A stretch of 64,000 nt of DNA from Planctomycetota bacterium (GTDB taxonomy: Bacteria; Planctomycetota; UBA8742; UBA2392). Where the stretch lies: assembly GCA_027493625.1 (NCBI GenBank), contig JAOSKM010000001.1, forward strand, positions 711,489-775,488, read 5' to 3'. The position numbers were made by a program, and so were the translations under genes. Below are positions 22,573-29,277 of this stretch, piece after piece. How positions within the stretch are numbered: position 1 is the first letter of the stretch; every line of letters starts with the position of its first letter. The notes under the pieces were generated by a model. The model had not been told where the DNA came from and searched no databases. It saw nothing but the letters and a program-made list of their open reading frames with translations.

Positions 22573-23409
22573 TTACTTGAGGCGCGTCCGCGGATCAAGC
22601 CAGTCCCGCAGGCCGTCACCAAGCAGGTTGAAGCCGAGTACCGTGCCCAGGATGCACGCCCCGGCCACACCCACCTGGAAGGCGCCCTTGCTGGGTGAAT
22701 TCCAGCCGGCCTTCAGTATCAACCCCCATTCGGGATCGAAGGGATCGCCACCGAGCCCCAGGAACGCCAACCCCGCCACGTCGAGAATGGCGCTGCCCAT
22801 GCCAAGGGTGGCCAGTACGATCAGCGGAGTCAGGCAGTTGGGCAGCACATGACGCAGCAGGATGCGCAGGTGGGAATAGCCTAGCGCCCTGGCGGACTCC
22901 ACGTATTCCAGTGCCTTGACGCGGAGCACTTCAGCGCGCACCTGGCGGGCAAACAGCGGTGCGCCGACAATCCCGACGGCAAGCACAAGGTTCTCCAGCG
23001 ACTTGCCGAGAATCGCCACCATGACCACGGCGAGCAGGAAGCTGGGAAAGCTCATCATGAAATCCACGACGCGCATAAGCGCCAGGTCAACCCAGCGCCC
23101 GGCGTAGCCTGCCACCGCCCCGAGCAGCCCGCCAAGCAACAGGGCCAGCAGCGTCGCCAGCAGAGCGATCCGCAGTGTCGTCCGCGCGCCGTATACAATC
23201 CGGCTGAACAGGTCGTATCCCTGTCCATCCAGCCCAAGCCAGTGATCGGCGGACGGATCAGCGAAGAAATCATATGAGACCGGGTCTTTGGGGCCGTACT
23301 CAGTCAGCACCGGCGCCAGCACCGCGGCTGCAATAACGAGCAGTATCAGAAACACACCCGCCTGGGCCGGTCTGTGTTTCCGCAGGAATCGCAGGAAGTC
23401 GCGGATCAT
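22573..23409 (-). CDS. dppC: Peptide/nickel-type ABC transporter permease (DppC-like)
   Basis: A 278-aa inner-membrane permease with a long first membrane helix (residues 17-38), the conserved periplasmic loop ADHWLGLDGQGYDLFSRIVYGARTTL (core WLGLDGQGYDLFSR), four further helices and the cytoplasmic EAA loop YVESARALGYSHLRILLRHVLPN that docks to the ATPase. It starts four bases before the end of dppB. No ATPase genes (dppD/dppF) follow in this window: the next gene is prkA. Energy must come from ATPases encoded elsewhere. Confidence 0.9.
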   Translation of the reverse strand: MIRDFLRFLRKHRPAQAGVFLILLVIAAAVLAPVLTEYGPKDPVSYDFFADPSADHWLGLDGQGYDLFSRIVYGARTTLRIALLATLLALLLGGLLGAVAGYAGRWVDLALMRVVDFMMSFPSFLLAVVMVAILGKSLENLVLAVGIVGAPLFARQVRAEVLRVKALEYVESARALGYSHLRILLRHVLPNCLTPLIVLATLGMGSAILDVAGLAFLGLGGDPFDPEWGLILKAGWNSPSKGAFQVGVAGACILGTVLGFNLLGDGLRDWLDPRTRLK

Positions 23410-24428
23410 TCCCGCCCCCTGTGCCTCAGTCGCGGATCGATGACCGAGTAGCTGATGTCCGTAAACAGGTTCACGAGCACAAAGAAGGTGGCGATGATCA
23501 ACACGGAAGCCTGCAGTGGCTTGCCATCCAGGCGAATCACGGCATCCACGACGTAGCGGCCCATGCCGGGCCAGTTGAAGATGGTTTCCGTCAGCACGGC
23601 CCCGCCCAGCAGGTATCCGAATTGGGTACCGATCGAGGTAATGACCGGGATCAGAGCGTTGCGCATGGCATGGCGGATCACCACCGGTGCGGGCGCCACG
23701 CCCTTTGCGCGCGCGGTGCGGATGTAGTCCTGGTCAAGGACTTCCAGCATGCTGGCGCGCGTCATGCGTGCAATCAGCGCCATTGGCACCGTAGCCAGCA
23801 CGAATGCCGGCAGGGCAAGGTGATGCAGCAACTCCAGTGCAAGCTCGGGGCTGCGGTAAGTGAAAATGGCTTCGTAGATGAAGAACCCTGTGTCAGGCTG
23901 AAAGCCCTGCCAGCCCGCCTCGTTGAAGCGGCCTCCGAATGGCACCAGACCCAGGTCGCCGGCCACCAGCTGCTGCAACATGAAACCGAGCCAGAAGATC
24001 GGCATGCTCACGCCGGTCAGTGCGATGAACAGACAAATGAAATCCCAGACCGAACGCGGTTTCACGGACGCCAGGATGCCGAGGGATATTCCCATGATCG
24101 AGGCAAGCAGCATGGCCGCAACTGCAAGCTCAATGGTGGCCGGAATCTTCTGCTGCAGTTCCCTGGAGACTTCCTGGTTGCTGAAGTAGCTGCGCCCGAA
24201 GTCGCCGGTCGCGGCGTTGCTGACGAAATCCGCGTACTGCACGGGTAATGGGCGATCCAGCCCCAGCTCATGGCGCATCGCCGCCATGTTTTCTTCGGTC
24301 GCCTGCTGCCCGAGCAGCGCTGCAGTCGGGTCGCCCGGCAGCGCGTGCAGCAAAAGAAAACTGGCGATGCTGATCGCAATCAGCATCGGCACTGCGGCCA
24401 GGACTCTTCTCAGGATGTGAGTGAACAA
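23406..24428 (-). CDS. dppB: Peptide/nickel-type ABC transporter permease (DppB-like)
   Basis: A 340-aa permease. The N-terminus (FTHILRRVLAAVPMLIAISIASFLLL; core RRVLAAVPMLI) and LPGDPTAALLG are the hallmark start of DppB/OppB, and the EAA loop is DYIRTARAKGVAPAPVVIRHAMRN (core RTARAKG). Six membrane segments are visible. It should form the membrane channel with DppC for uptake of di- or oligopeptides (or nickel). It lies 18 bases after the binding-protein gene. Confidence 0.92.
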   Translation of the reverse strand: MFTHILRRVLAAVPMLIAISIASFLLLHALPGDPTAALLGQQATEENMAAMRHELGLDRPLPVQYADFVSNAATGDFGRSYFSNQEVSRELQQKIPATIELAVAAMLLASIMGISLGILASVKPRSVWDFICLFIALTGVSMPIFWLGFMLQQLVAGDLGLVPFGGRFNEAGWQGFQPDTGFFIYEAIFTYRSPELALELLHHLALPAFVLATVPMALIARMTRASMLEVLDQDYIRTARAKGVAPAPVVIRHAMRNALIPVITSIGTQFGYLLGGAVLTETIFNWPGMGRYVVDAVIRLDGKPLQASVLIIATFFVLVNLFTDISYSVIDPRLRHRGRE

Positions 24429-24446: not shown

Positions 24447-26102
24447 CTATTCCTCAATCGAAGCCTTGTGGAAATGGTACTGACCCGTTGTATCGACCAG
24501 CACGCCGGTCAGGTTGCTGCGCCAGGCCAGGCTGCGCTGGGCCGAAAGCAGTGGAACCATGGGGCGGAAAGTTTCAAACACCCATTTTTTCCAGGTCTTC
24601 GTAAGACTTCTGGCGCCTGGTCTCGTCGGTCTCCACTCCGGCGGCATCCATGCGCGCCATCACTTCTTCGTTGTAGAATCGTGCCGCATTCAGGGGCGCG
24701 GGCTTGCCGTCACTGCCCCCCAGCAGCGGGCGCCAGAAGTTGTCAGGCTCGCCGGAGTCGCCCATCCAGCCCAACAGCACCAGCGCAAACTTGCCGCTTT
24801 TGACTCGGCCAGTGATCTCACTCATGGGCGACTTGGCCAGCGTGACCTCCAGACCGACTTCCTTCAGCTGCTGCTGAATCAGGTTGGCGATCTCGTCCGG
24901 ATACAGCAGGTACGGGCGCGCAACGTCCGGCATGAGCAGTTCAAGCTTCGCGCCCTCCGCTTCGGCCTCCTTGATCAGAGTTCTTGCCCGAGCGATGGCC
25001 TCCTCACGGGGCACGGTGTCGGTCGGGGGCTTGTAACCCTTCGGGAAGCCTAACGACGGTGGGGGAAGCAACACATGCTGCGAGACCGCCTTGCCGGAAA
25101 ACTTCGCGACCATCGGATCGCGGTTGATCGCAAGTGCGATAGCCTCGCGCACGTTGCGGTTGGCGGTGACGTGTCCATTCTCGGCCGGGACGTTCATGGC
25201 CAGGTAGCACAGGTTCATTCCCTGCCAGGTGTGGAGGGTGACGTCTTTGTTGGATTCGAGGTCTGCCCAGTCGCCGGGGTCGAGGTTGTCGGTGAACTGG
25301 ATATCGCCTGCGATCAGGCGTTGCGTGCGCTGTCGCACTTCGGCCTGGGTCTGGAAGACGACACGTTCGATTTTCGGTGCTCCATCCCAGTATCCCGGAA
25401 AAGAGGTGAGCGTCAGGTTCGCGCCGGATTCCTTGTAGTCACCGCCTGACGCGATGGTGTAGGGACCGGTGCCCGCCGGGTGGCTCGTCAGCCAGGAGGA
25501 GCGCTCGGCCGGGTTGGTGATCGTTGCCATGTGGTCGATCGCCTTGGGACTCACGATCATCGCCGGATGGATACCGATGTTGCTCAGGAACCGCGGATTG
25601 GGCCCCTTCAGCGTGATGGTCACGGCATTCCCGTCAACCTTGATGCCCGTGACGTCACCGAAAAAGCCCTTGCGGTAGGGGCGCTCCACGGGTTTTGACG
25701 GGGCGTCTTCGTCCACCAGCCGAGCAAGCGACTTCTTCACCGCAGCCGCGTCCAGCTTGCTGCCATCGTGGAAGGTCACCCCTCCCGAATTACGAACGTG
25801 TACTCTGACTTGTCGTCATTGGAGGTCCAACTGGTTGCCAGGCCGGGCTCCCAGACCACCTTCGGAGTGCCGACACTGGGCCTGACCAGCGTCTCGTACA
25901 TCTGCAGCAATACCGTGACGTCACCGCCGCTTTCCGTTGCCTGGGGATCCAGGTTTTCGGACTTGTCCGCGCGCAGTACGGTCACGGTTTTCGAAGCTTC
26001 GACCTTGGTGAGCGAAGGAGCGTTGCCGCCGCCGCAGGCGGTGTTGAGGATTGCGCTCAGGGCTACGGCGCCGAACAGGGCCAGGGTTGCCAGTGGCTTC
26101 AT
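24447..26102 (-). CDS. dppA: Peptide ABC transporter substrate-binding lipoprotein, two frameshifts
   Basis: A periplasmic solute-binding lipoprotein of SBP family 5. It starts at ATG 26102 (AGAGGT upstream) with a signal peptide and lipobox-like LNTACGGG. The frame breaks at a G4 run (C4 on the plus strand, 25779-25782): one extra G gives REGVTFHDGSKLDAAAVKKSL, the family signature. It breaks again at A6 (T6 at 24585-24590): one A fewer gives YEDLEKWVFETFRPMVPLL up to the true stop at 24447. All three pieces are well conserved, so the gene is probably intact in the organism and the two indels are sequence errors. Confidence 0.83.
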
Positions 26103-26203
26103 GGTTACCTCTCGCGTCACGGGGGCGCGTATTGGTACGAATGACGGTAGGGGAGTGCGAAGTTACCCCCCAACCCGCGCCACGCAAGCGGATTCGCGCC
26201 CAA

Positions 26204-26845
26204 TCAATTGCCGGTGGGGGAGACACCCAACTGCTGCTCCAGCGCCGCCACCCGGGCTTCCAGGGCCGCGATGCGCTCCTCCAGTGCCGGGCTGGCGGTG
26301 CGCACGGTTACGCGGGTTGAGGCGCTTGCCTCCTCTGCGCTGGGGGCTTCGTCCTCGGGGTACAGGCAGTGGGCCCAGATCACGCCGCGGGCGCGGTTGG
26401 GGTCGCTGATCCGCTTCGCCAGCGGCTCGTCGCGGCCTGACAACTCCTCCAGTACCTTGTGCAGCGCCGGCAGGTCGGCGATCGGCGCCATGCGGCCGGC
26501 GCGCTGGCGCAGCTCGCCCTCGGTCTGCGGGCCGCGCAGCAGCAGCTCGGCGATCACGGCCGCCTGCTCGTTGCTGAGGCCGGTGTTGGTTACGAAGGCC
26601 TCTTCCCATTTGCTGACGCGGCTGCCGGCGCCGAAGAACTCGGTGGCGAAGCTGCGGCGCTTGAGGGTCTGCAGGGTTTCGAGCACGTCGTTCTCGGTGA
26701 AGCTGGTTTCCGGGTCGCGGGCGGACTTCTGGTTGCAGCCGTTGGTGAGCGCGTTCAGCGACAGCGGATAGTTCTGCGGCGTGGTCAGCGACTTCTCGAT
26801 CAGCGTGCCGATCACGCGGCGTTCGATGGCGGTCAGGGTCGGCAT
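26204..26845 (-). CDS. yceH: YceH family protein (UPF0502)
   Basis: A 213-aa protein of the YceH/DUF480 family: LTAIERRVIGTLIEKSLTTP near the N-terminus, YPLSLNALTNGCNQKSARDP, and AAVIAELLLRGPQTEGELRQR. The fold is two winged-helix domains; the role is unknown. The C-terminus adds a coiled-coil heptad stretch (LEERIAALEARVAALEQQLG). ATG 26845 is chosen because GGAGG lies five bases before it and the family starts there; the frame extends upstream without support. Confidence 0.88.
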   Translation of the reverse strand: MPTLTAIERRVIGTLIEKSLTTPQNYPLSLNALTNGCNQKSARDPETSFTENDVLETLQTLKRRSFATEFFGAGSRVSKWEEAFVTNTGLSNEQAAVIAELLLRGPQTEGELRQRAGRMAPIADLPALHKVLEELSGRDEPLAKRISDPNRARGVIWAHCLYPEDEAPSAEEASASTRVTVRTASPALEERIAALEARVAALEQQLGVSPTGN

Positions 26846-26907
26846 GGCATCCTCCGCGCGCATGATAGTGGGGGACGCGACAATGGCGAGGGCGAATGAA
26901 ACGACAA

Positions 26908-26930
26908 CCGGCGACCTGTGAGGTCGCCGG
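26908..26930 (-). terminator. Hairpin terminator after the selenoprotein gene
   Basis: CCGGCGACC-TGTGA-GGTCGCCGG forms a perfect 9-bp stem. On the minus strand it lies 61 bases after the stop of the thioredoxin gene and is followed by a T-containing stretch (TTGTCGTTTC). It lacks a long U tract, so it could instead be a REP-like palindrome. Confidence 0.55.
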
Positions 26931-26990
26931 TACATCGAACGCTGGTTGGCAACGGGCCCCGACCTCACGGCCGAGGCTCCCTGTCGCTGG

Positions 26991-27971
26991 TTACTCGTAG
27001 CGCTTGGCCAACTCAGCGGCTTCTTTGCCGGCCTTGGTGTCCGGGTACTTCTTGGCGATCTTCTCGAGTGCCTTCCTTGCGCTGGAAGCCTTCATGTCTT
27101 CGAGCTTGGGCTTGATCTCGTCCAGGGCCTCCTGAGCCTTGAGCGTGTCCTTGTACTCTTTGCTCTTGACCAGCTCTTTGGCCTCGCCGGCCCACTTGTC
27201 GCCCTGCTCGCTGCCTTTCAACTTGGCGGCGGCTTCGTCCATGAGCTTCGCGACGTTCTCCAGGTCGCCGTTCGCGCGGGCCGCTTCCATCCTGCGCGAG
27301 TAGCCGTCGATGTGCTGCTGGACCTGCTCTTCGATGAACTTCGCGTCGGACTTCACCTGTTCGGCCTCGGCTGCAGCGCCAGCCTTCTGCGCTTCAACGA
27401 GTGCCTTTCCGTACTCGCCCTTGTTGTAGGTTTCGGCGACGTCCTTCAACTCCTCGGTTACCTCACGTTCAAGCTTGATGGGACCGAAGTCCTTAACCCA
27501 CTCCGCGACGATTTCTGCGGTCACGCCATTGGGGTGGCCCTTGAAAATGCACTTGCCGTCCGGGTCCAGCACCCAGCAGTGGGGGATGCCTCGGTTTTCG
27601 TACACAGAGCTGATGTTCGCCTTCACAACACCGTAGGTAACCTTCTTGGCGTCGATCAGCTTGGTCTGGATGGTGGCCTCGGCCTCGGCGCTGACGGCCA
27701 CGATTTCAAAGCCACGGTTTCGGAACTTGTCGCTCAACTCCTGTAGATGGGGAACCCCCGTCATACAGGGGCCTCACGTAGTGGCCCAGCGTTCCACCAT
27801 TACGACCTTGCCACGCAACTGGCTGAGTTCGGTGACGCCGGCTTCGAAGTTCCAGCTTTTGTCGAACTTGAAGCTGGGGCAGGTATCGCCGACCTCCACA
27901 GCGGCACTCAAGCTGCCGGCCAGTACTGCCGCCGTTACAGCCGTGAGCGCGAACAACGCAACACGATTCAT
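26991..27971 (-). CDS. Probable selenocysteine-containing TlpA-like thioredoxin (UGPC)
   Basis: ATG 27971 (GGGAGAG upstream) opens a signal peptide (about residues 1-24), then a redoxin domain: VGDTCPSFKF, LRGKVVMVERWATT, then in-frame UGA at 27776-27774, then GPCMTGVPHLQELSDKF. The domain continues with GFEIVAVSAE and the cis-Pro motif RGIPHCWVLDPDGKCIFKG, without another break. The UGA falls exactly on the first Cys of CXXC, giving UGPC. Hairpin bases follow at once (see SECIS entry). Read through, the protein is 326 residues, with a charged helical C-terminal half (about residues 175-326). TGA is an ordinary stop in neighbouring genes. Alternative: a TGC/TGT to TGA point error. Confidence 0.8.
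27740..27776 (-). promoter_or_regulatory. Candidate bacterial SECIS element
   Basis: On the minus strand, bases 5-34 after the UGA form one hairpin: CCUGUA pairs with UACAGG, a U is bulged, GA pairs with UC, there is one mismatch, and GGGG pairs with CCCC around a GUU loop. So a GGU apex falls 18-20 bases after the UGA, close to the geometry of the fdhF SECIS (bulged U, GGU apex at 19-21). Family knowledge: SelB binds such an apex to insert selenocysteine. The fit is by eye only. Confidence 0.65.
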
Positions 27972-28041: not shown

Positions 28042-29277
28042 TTACTTTTCTGTGTTGCCCGGGCCGCTGCGCTTACGCGGCAAATGACGCGCCGCCACGG
28101 CAGACAGCAAGAGCGCAATGATCAGCAGCAGCGCGCCAGGCTGCCCGTTGGTACTGCAACCGCCTTCGCCCTCCGGCTCGGGCGATTTGGGCGGTGCCGG
28201 CGGGGTGCTGACGTTGATGATGTCGCCGCTGATGAAGTTGGGCGTGGTCACGAAGAAATCCGCCGCCGCGCCCAGTGCGCCCAGCACCTGGGTGCGCGTC
28301 ACCGAGACTTCGCAGGTGGCGTCGGGGCCGGCGCCAAAGTCGATACCGACCCAGAATGTGCGCGCGCCGCCGCTGGGAATGTCCGACAGGTTCTGCACCG
28401 GCGTGCCGTCGAAAGTCACGCTGATCACGCTGCCCGCCACGATCCATTTGCCGGCGTCCGCGGGCGTGCGCTGCAGGATCAGTACTTCGCCTGCACTGGG
28501 CTCAAACACCGCGTCGCCGTCGTCCTGCCACAGGGCCAGCCGCGTGACCGTGGCTGTCTGCGCGGCGTTGGCGCAGGTGACCGAAATGGTGATCTCGGCC
28601 AGGTCGATGCCCTGCAGCTGACCGGGCCCGGTCGGCGTGAGGCTGGAAACGATGAAGTGCAAGGCCGGGAAGTTGCCGGTGTTCAAGGGCGCCGAGCGTG
28701 GCGCCGTCGGGTTGCCGGTACCGGCCACCAGCTGGTTCTCGCTGTGGCGGATAGTGATGTTGTTGGAGGTCGCCACCGTGGTGCTGCTGATCGAGTCGCC
28801 GCCGTTGGTCAGCACGATGTCGGCCTGCGGGTCGATGCTGAAGTTGAAGGCTTCGCCGTACACCGACGTATCCACGCCGATGTTTACGCGCAGTTGCAGT
28901 GTGCGGATCAGGCCGCTGGGCGCGTTGATGGTCTCCGTGAACGTGACGTCGTCGGTGGCGCCGCTGGGCACGATGGTGCTGGTTTCGTCCAGTTCTTCGG
29001 TCGGGTCGAAGGTGCCGTTGCCATCGGCGTCGAAAAACAGCCGCAGACGTGTGAAGGCGTTGTCGGCCAGGGCGAAGTTGCTGATGTGGATGGTGATCGA
29101 GTCAATCGAAACGTTGCCGCCGGTGGGCTGCAGCACGTAACGGGCAACCTCGACATCGGTGTCATTGAGCTGGTTGCCGAAATCGGGCCCGGTGGTGCCG
29201 GACAGGTTCACGGCCAAAGTGGCGGCCGAGAGCGGCAGAGCCAGAATCGCAAGAAACGCGGCAAAGACTGCCCGCAT
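28042..29277 (-). CDS. Secreted beta-rich protein with GGCST C-terminal anchor
   Basis: A 411-aa exported protein. The signal peptide is residues 1-18 (AAFLAILALPLSAA). The body is beta-strand-rich with Asp/Asn-rich turns (FFDADGNGTFDPTEELDE is like a calcium-binding loop) and two similar halves, the second with LALWQDDGDAVFEPSAGEVLILQ. The C-terminus is GEGGCSTNGQPGALLLIIALLL ending in RHLPRKRS (hydrophobic helix, then Arg/Lys tail), the same tripartite signal as in the two subtilases downstream. It is probably attached to the cell surface. Function unknown. It is transcribed towards the thioredoxin gene with a 70-base gap. Confidence 0.75.
   Translation of the reverse strand: MRAVFAAFLAILALPLSAATLAVNLSGTTGPDFGNQLNDTDVEVARYVLQPTGGNVSIDSITIHISNFALADNAFTRLRLFFDADGNGTFDPTEELDETSTIVPSGATDDVTFTETINAPSGLIRTLQLRVNIGVDTSVYGEAFNFSIDPQADIVLTNGGDSISSTTVATSNNITIRHSENQLVAGTGNPTAPRSAPLNTGNFPALHFIVSSLTPTGPGQLQGIDLAEITISVTCANAAQTATVTRLALWQDDGDAVFEPSAGEVLILQRTPADAGKWIVAGSVISVTFDGTPVQNLSDIPSGGARTFWVGIDFGAGPDATCEVSVTRTQVLGALGAAADFFVTTPNFISGDIINVSTPPAPPKSPEPEGEGGCSTNGQPGALLLIIALLLSAVAARHLPRKRSGPGNTEK

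Follow-up and report, generated by a model that had tools for sequence, protein, structure and literature searches.

A hidden, expanded subfamily of predicted UxxC thioredoxin-fold selenoproteins in Planctomycetota

Thioredoxin-fold selenoproteins with selenocysteine (Sec, U) first in a UxxC motif have been catalogued as 'Prx-like thiol:disulfide oxidoreductase' (PF00578), 'Redoxin family protein' (PF08534) and 'Thiol-disulfide isomerase-like protein' (PF13905) (PMC13188914, PMC9312934), and as GOS 'Trx-like 1' (COG0526) (PMC2398784). The name Planctomycetota is absent from the main text of these three sources. Selenoproteins have been predicted in two Planctomycetes (PMC4807772), and the subfamily described here may be included among those predictions. 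Its starting point is a gene on the minus strand (27971–26991) of a 64,000-nucleotide stretch of DNA from a Planctomycetota bacterium, which we call the window. Judged from sequence, this gene very probably encodes a selenoprotein, with the UGA at codon 66 predicted to be read as Sec. We favour this reading because of the reading frame itself, the exchange of TGA and Cys at exactly one alignment column, the Sec genes present in the genome, and selection at synonymous sites for a hairpin after the UGA.

The frame opens with ATG, runs for 326 codons to a TAA stop and contains a single TGA, at codon 66 (27776–27774, minus strand), in the surroundings VVMVERWATT-U-GPCMTGVPHLQEL (Table 1). A sequence-only reading of this DNA had described a sole UGA inside an otherwise unbroken frame at 26991–27971, as is the case, but had left the strand unstated. 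Translated on the plus strand, the same interval gives nonsense. The domain landmarks proposed on either side of the UGA were also recovered: matches to the Pfam families AhpC-TSA (48.1 bits, cut-off 26), Redoxin (44.5, cut-off 26.6), Thioredoxin_8 (33.4, cut-off 27) and Thioredoxin (24.8, also above its cut-off) extend to both sides of codon 66. Among solved structures, the nearest by sequence were those of a redoxin domain protein (28db, E 1.5e-17), of a DsbE-like protein (3gl3) and of ResA. In a confident thioredoxin-fold model Sec66 lies where the active-site helix begins, and structure matches agree. Pro130 sits, by its position in the sequence, at what we take to be the thioredoxin cis-Pro place, so that the protein has what marks TlpA/ResA proteins: a thioredoxin fold, a redox pair at a helix N-terminus and a conserved Pro.

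We followed the codon-66 column through relatives of the gene. For a first set, 195 loci (80 of them from named genomes) were translated in six frames with TGA read as a residue; matches were selected with a profile of 16 close relatives, and removal of copies identical around the codon left 211 sequences, with TGA at the column in 90, Cys in 114, Asp in 1, Ser in 1 and 5 unaligned. A later set, drawn from 58 loci in other genomes of the phylum search, gave 41 TGA, 17 Cys and 1 unaligned (n = 59). Pooled, the column holds TGA in 131 distinct sequences (the window gene included), Cys in 131, Asp in 1 and Ser in 1, with 6 of the 270 unaligned; apart from those two residues, every aligned codon was thus either TGA or a Cys codon (TGC/TGT), the comparison of homologues that the sequence-only reading had proposed as a check. 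Its placing of the UGA at the first active-site Cys, in the motif ERWATT-UGA-GPC, is borne out by the same column. All 131 TGA members have one TGA per aligned domain, always here. The Asp and the Ser at this catalytic position come from L043 and L049.

Thirteen family-level relatives (78–45% identity) share the frame, 12 with UGA and one, the second copy in L032, with Cys; the nearest relative (about 77% identity) also has UGA. The genome itself encodes ten family members at E ≤1e-5, of which seven have exactly one TGA, in each case at the codon-66 column. At E ≤1e-20, a family member occurs in 46 of 119 genomes (this one included) and at least one TGA member in 38 of these; in the window's own family group all 16 of 16 genomes have TGA members, one to six each. 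The 80 named-genome loci yielded no additional distinct TGA member: the only TGA locus there, L056, copies L032, with which it is identical over two 200-base stretches; L032 belongs to a genome of the same genus as the window. With the residue masked, a tree of 148 near full-length members requires no fewer than 11 changes between Sec and Cys, and well-supported branches force 8 of these; the tree is the product of a quick search and includes several long branches.

These counts bear on the possibility that sequencing error, or a nonsense mutation of recent date, put the UGA into what is an ordinary Cys thioredoxin gene or a pseudogene. Frame breaks do occur elsewhere in the assembly, in selB and in an ABC substrate-binding gene near 25776. 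Against this, 131 distinct sequences, spread over many genomes, have TGA at the same codon and nowhere else in the aligned domain; the nearest relative has it too, as do seven members in this genome. As a general cause, error or nonsense mutation is already refuted, and for this gene we consider it scarcely credible.

Three residues after the UGA, the resolving position is Cys in 130 TGA members and Ser in 1 (L192, G015:C46, motif UGPS). Six residues before the UGA, the TGA members have Glu (93), Lys (35) or Asp (3). This is the position of Asp26 in E. coli thioredoxin; the 35 of 131 with Lys there include L022 and L024, and such a Lys may alter the pKa of the redox couple. Sec and Cys forms can also be neighbours: in the tandem array G000:C3:321472-324572 (L021, L022, L025) a UGA copy is followed by a Cys copy, with a third member lacking TGA, and comparable Sec/Cys tandems occur in the relatives L032, L141, L142 and L149.

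A protein search in which scoring was limited to the 7,999 candidates with the most shared words gave 53 database homologues. Codon 66 has no counterpart in 46 of them, 38 of which begin at Met70; all seven that cover the codon have Cys. If the selenoprotein reading is true, the proteins have been overlooked because gene callers place starts after the UGA. The same data could instead mean that the real product is the 257-residue protein starting at Met70, with the upstream part not co-translated, and termination by RF2 combined with internal initiation could indeed give some of this shorter form. Such a product, however, would lack a signal peptide and both active-site residues, and its thioredoxin fold would be incomplete at the N-terminal end; G28, W40, E60, W62, A63 and T64, all upstream of codon 66, are invariant in a 16-sequence alignment, and the Cys in all seven covering homologues also speaks for a continuous protein. 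We therefore regard a start at Met70 as very unlikely, and translation through a Sec codon as the better account.

Could UGA simply be a sense codon in this lineage, by reassignment or by read-through with a near-cognate tRNA? More than 200 conserved codons do follow the UGA in frame. TGA nevertheless terminates the window genes 26204–26968 and 23406–24428, as expected from the earlier remark that it is a normal stop nearby. Among 119 near full-length TGA members the terminal stop is TAG in 56, TGA in 33 and TAA in 30, the 33 terminal TGA codons lying 1–15 codons beyond the aligned end. Because these 33 UGA-bearing genes themselves end with TGA, the code is not reassigned. There is also no TGA in SelA or in the best SelB match, and the only one in SelD falls in a GAG-U-GCK motif. 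This explanation has, in our view, next to no chance of being right.

The Sec machinery whose presence had been suggested as a check was found in the genome: SelA (483.6 bits), a tRNA-Sec with anticodon UCA (73.1 bits) near selA on the same contig, SelD (393.9 bits; L017, G000:C1:2059742-2060665) and SelB (316.8 bits; L002, G000:C2), the last split over two frames in the assembly. The TGA in SelD is its own GAG-U-GCK codon, and this UGA-containing SelD resembles known Sec-SelD. Across genomes, a strong SelA match accompanies a TGA member in 36 of 38 cases, versus 49 of 81 genomes without one (Fisher p 4e-5, with no kinship correction); the two TGA-member genomes without strong SelA, in which tRNA-Sec was sought, do have one with anticodon UCA. 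Within what was examined, we found neither of the two outcomes that the sequence-only reading had named as fatal, namely a genome without Sec machinery together with Cys at this codon in re-sequenced DNA, or a close relative with an ordinary stop and no downstream thioredoxin domain.

The RNA after the UGA provides the remaining evidence. A published model of the bacterial selenocysteine insertion sequence (SECIS) has a loop of 3–9 nt, an upper stem of 4–16 bp, a G in the first two loop positions, a spacing of 16–37 nt and a minimum free energy (MFE) of at most −7.5 (PMC13188914). The window gene falls within all these limits, with a 4-bp upper stem, a GUU loop, a spacing of 18 and an MFE of −17.7 kcal/mol over the 44 nt from the UGA. 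As background we shuffled codons among synonyms 200 times, scoring the loop, spacing and stem terms of the model. Hairpins with a stem of at least 6 bp (which excludes the window gene, at 4 bp) occur in 60 of 90 TGA members of the first set versus 10.3 expected (shuffle maximum 19) and in 16 of 41 of the later set versus 3.5 expected (maximum 9), so that both sets exceed all 200 synonymous shuffles. Cys members are at background for this form, both in the phylum (5/21 versus 3.1 expected, and 0/17 versus 0.6) and in named genomes (8/93 versus 7.0). The weaker 4-bp form is found in 81/90 TGA members versus 46.1 expected and, in the later set, in 23/41 versus 16.1; 85/90 and 32/41 stay within the MFE limit over the first 44 nt. 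Across eight orthologues, 90.8% of hairpin cells stay paired, and in 4 of 15 pairs both sides have changed. As the excess over shuffles is confined to TGA members, synonymous sites are shaped for the hairpin where UGA is used, with no such signal where Cys is encoded.

This contrast also helps to separate Sec from insertion of cysteine at the UGA by an unusual tRNA. Cys is evidently a functional alternative at the site, and sequence alone cannot tell sulfur from selenium. The tRNA with the UCA anticodon, however, scores as tRNA-Sec and lies close to selA, SelA and SelD are both present, and the hairpin excess is seen only with UGA. We judge cysteine insertion extremely improbable, and decoding as Sec by far the more natural reading.

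Several observations weigh against it. The frame break in SelB precedes the C-terminal SelB-wing_3 (winged-helix) domain, which occupies a separate 167-aa frame, whereas in 14 same-family relatives this domain lies within frames of 654–750 aa; one further same-family relative, G003, gave no SelB match. A second split gene in the window, encoding an ABC substrate-binding protein (24574–26120, minus, two frames), is a possible sign of indel noise in the assembly. The hairpin of the window gene is by itself only moderately exceptional: 53 nt around and after the UGA reach −23.6 kcal/mol at z −2.96, two other stretches z −1.96 and −1.85, and the upper stem has just 4 bp. Of the UGA members, 9/90 and 18/41 fail the 4-bp form, and 5/90 and 9/41 miss the MFE limit over the first 44 nt; compared with synonymous shuffles, MFE reaches 0.05 in only 25/90, and phylum Cys members are intermediate by this measure (mean z −0.52 versus −1.08). 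Substrate, redox direction, location and partner, as given below, are what we infer.

Features of the gene and its surroundings are collected in Table 1. The stop of the upstream GEVED gene and the ATG of the selenoprotein gene are separated by 70 bases.

Table 1. Positions of the predicted selenoprotein gene, its parts and its neighbours in the window
Feature	Position	Strand	Remark
Predicted selenoprotein coding sequence	26991..27971	minus	326 residues; UGA = codon 66; TAA stop 26991-26993
In-frame UGA, predicted Sec66, first residue of U-G-P-C motif	27774..27776	minus	
Codon 69, resolving Cys of UGPC motif	27765..27767	minus	Cys in 130/131 UGA members
Internal ATG, Met70, start of 257-residue open reading frame	27762..27764	minus	start point of 38/53 database homologues
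SECIS-like hairpin beginning directly after UGA	27736..27773	minus	GUU apical loop 27753-27755, 18 nt after UGA
Predicted N-terminal signal peptide	27903..27971	minus	read by eye; residues 1-20 low model confidence
Thioredoxin-like domain (AhpC-TSA/Redoxin), residues 27-140	27552..27893	minus	
Codon 130, Pro	27582..27584	minus	invariant in 103-sequence alignment
C-terminal all-helical domain, residues 163-326, eight helices	26994..27485	minus	sequence kinship to C-terminal part of NF041382 proteins
Terminator-like hairpin 3' of gene	26907..26931	minus	pattern match only
Upstream neighbour gene, 411 aa, weak GEVED domain	28042..29277	minus	adjacency to selenoprotein gene conserved

By analogy, we infer that the product would be a secreted thiol-disulfide oxidoreductase. 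On known selenoprotein and TlpA/ResA chemistry, SelB and tRNA-Sec would decode UGA 66 as Sec, guided by the hairpin directly after it, and the signal peptide would direct export through the membrane. Sec66 would then act as nucleophile towards disulfide (or oxidised-thiol) substrates, with Cys69 resolving the selenenylsulfide, and a DsbD-type protein, for which a genome search gave one match, could re-reduce the enzyme. The C-terminal helical domain may bind a client or partner protein.

More broadly, and tentatively, Planctomycetota may possess a large, mostly mis-annotated superfamily of exported Sec thioredoxins multiplied by duplication (seven UGA members here), in which tandem Sec and Cys copies would divide labour, for example as a fast selenol reductase with a backup or relay partner that needs no selenium, and each copy would have its own client, given by its C-terminal helical domain; we hold this to be possible rather than probable. 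If true, extracytoplasmic selenium redox chemistry would be a recurrent trait of a lineage in which a literature search gave few selenoprotein studies. Natural Sec/Cys pairs are numerous in the family, in some cases as tandem copies within a single genome, and offer material for asking why organisms keep selenocysteine. There is also a concrete annotation fix to be made, the UGA-bearing part being absent from 46 of the 53 database homologues.

Comparison with described families sets limits on how new the protein is. It resembles ResA/TlpA/DsbE oxidoreductases but has a predicted Sec for the first Cys and a long C-terminal domain, and it scores 72.8 bits against the NCBIfam ResA model NF002854 (cut-off 170). 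None of seven family members of the genome (the window protein whole, the others mostly pieces) reaches any NCBIfam cut-off. The C-terminal domain matches profile positions 179–348 of NF041382 (VPGUxxT family thioredoxin-like (seleno)protein, type 1), but the best match omits the N-terminal half of that profile, the motif is WATTUGPC rather than VPGU, and the score is 51.2 bits against a cut-off of 350. With NF041054 (ResA-like WAxxUGC motif protein) and 'UGC-containing TlpA' it has in common a ResA-like domain and Sec after WAxx, but its motif is UGPC, not UGC, and it scores 40.7 bits against the NF041054 cut-off of 300. With the catalogued UxxC selenoproteins it shares the Pfam domains, all scoring above cut-off, and a UxxC motif with Sec first (UGPC). 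The sequence-only reading had called it a probable new selenoprotein; the selenoprotein part is supported, but the kind, a UxxC thioredoxin fold with these Pfam domains, is already in the catalogues (PMC13188914, PMC9312934). Relative to the catalogued proteins as they are described there, and by description rather than by sequence, the window subfamily adds a C-terminal eight-helix domain and is present in Planctomycetota genomes as several paralogues each. The apparent novelty lies in the subfamily itself, with its C-terminal domain and its distribution across Planctomycetota: it is a hidden, expanded subfamily within the known UxxC thioredoxin-fold selenoproteins.
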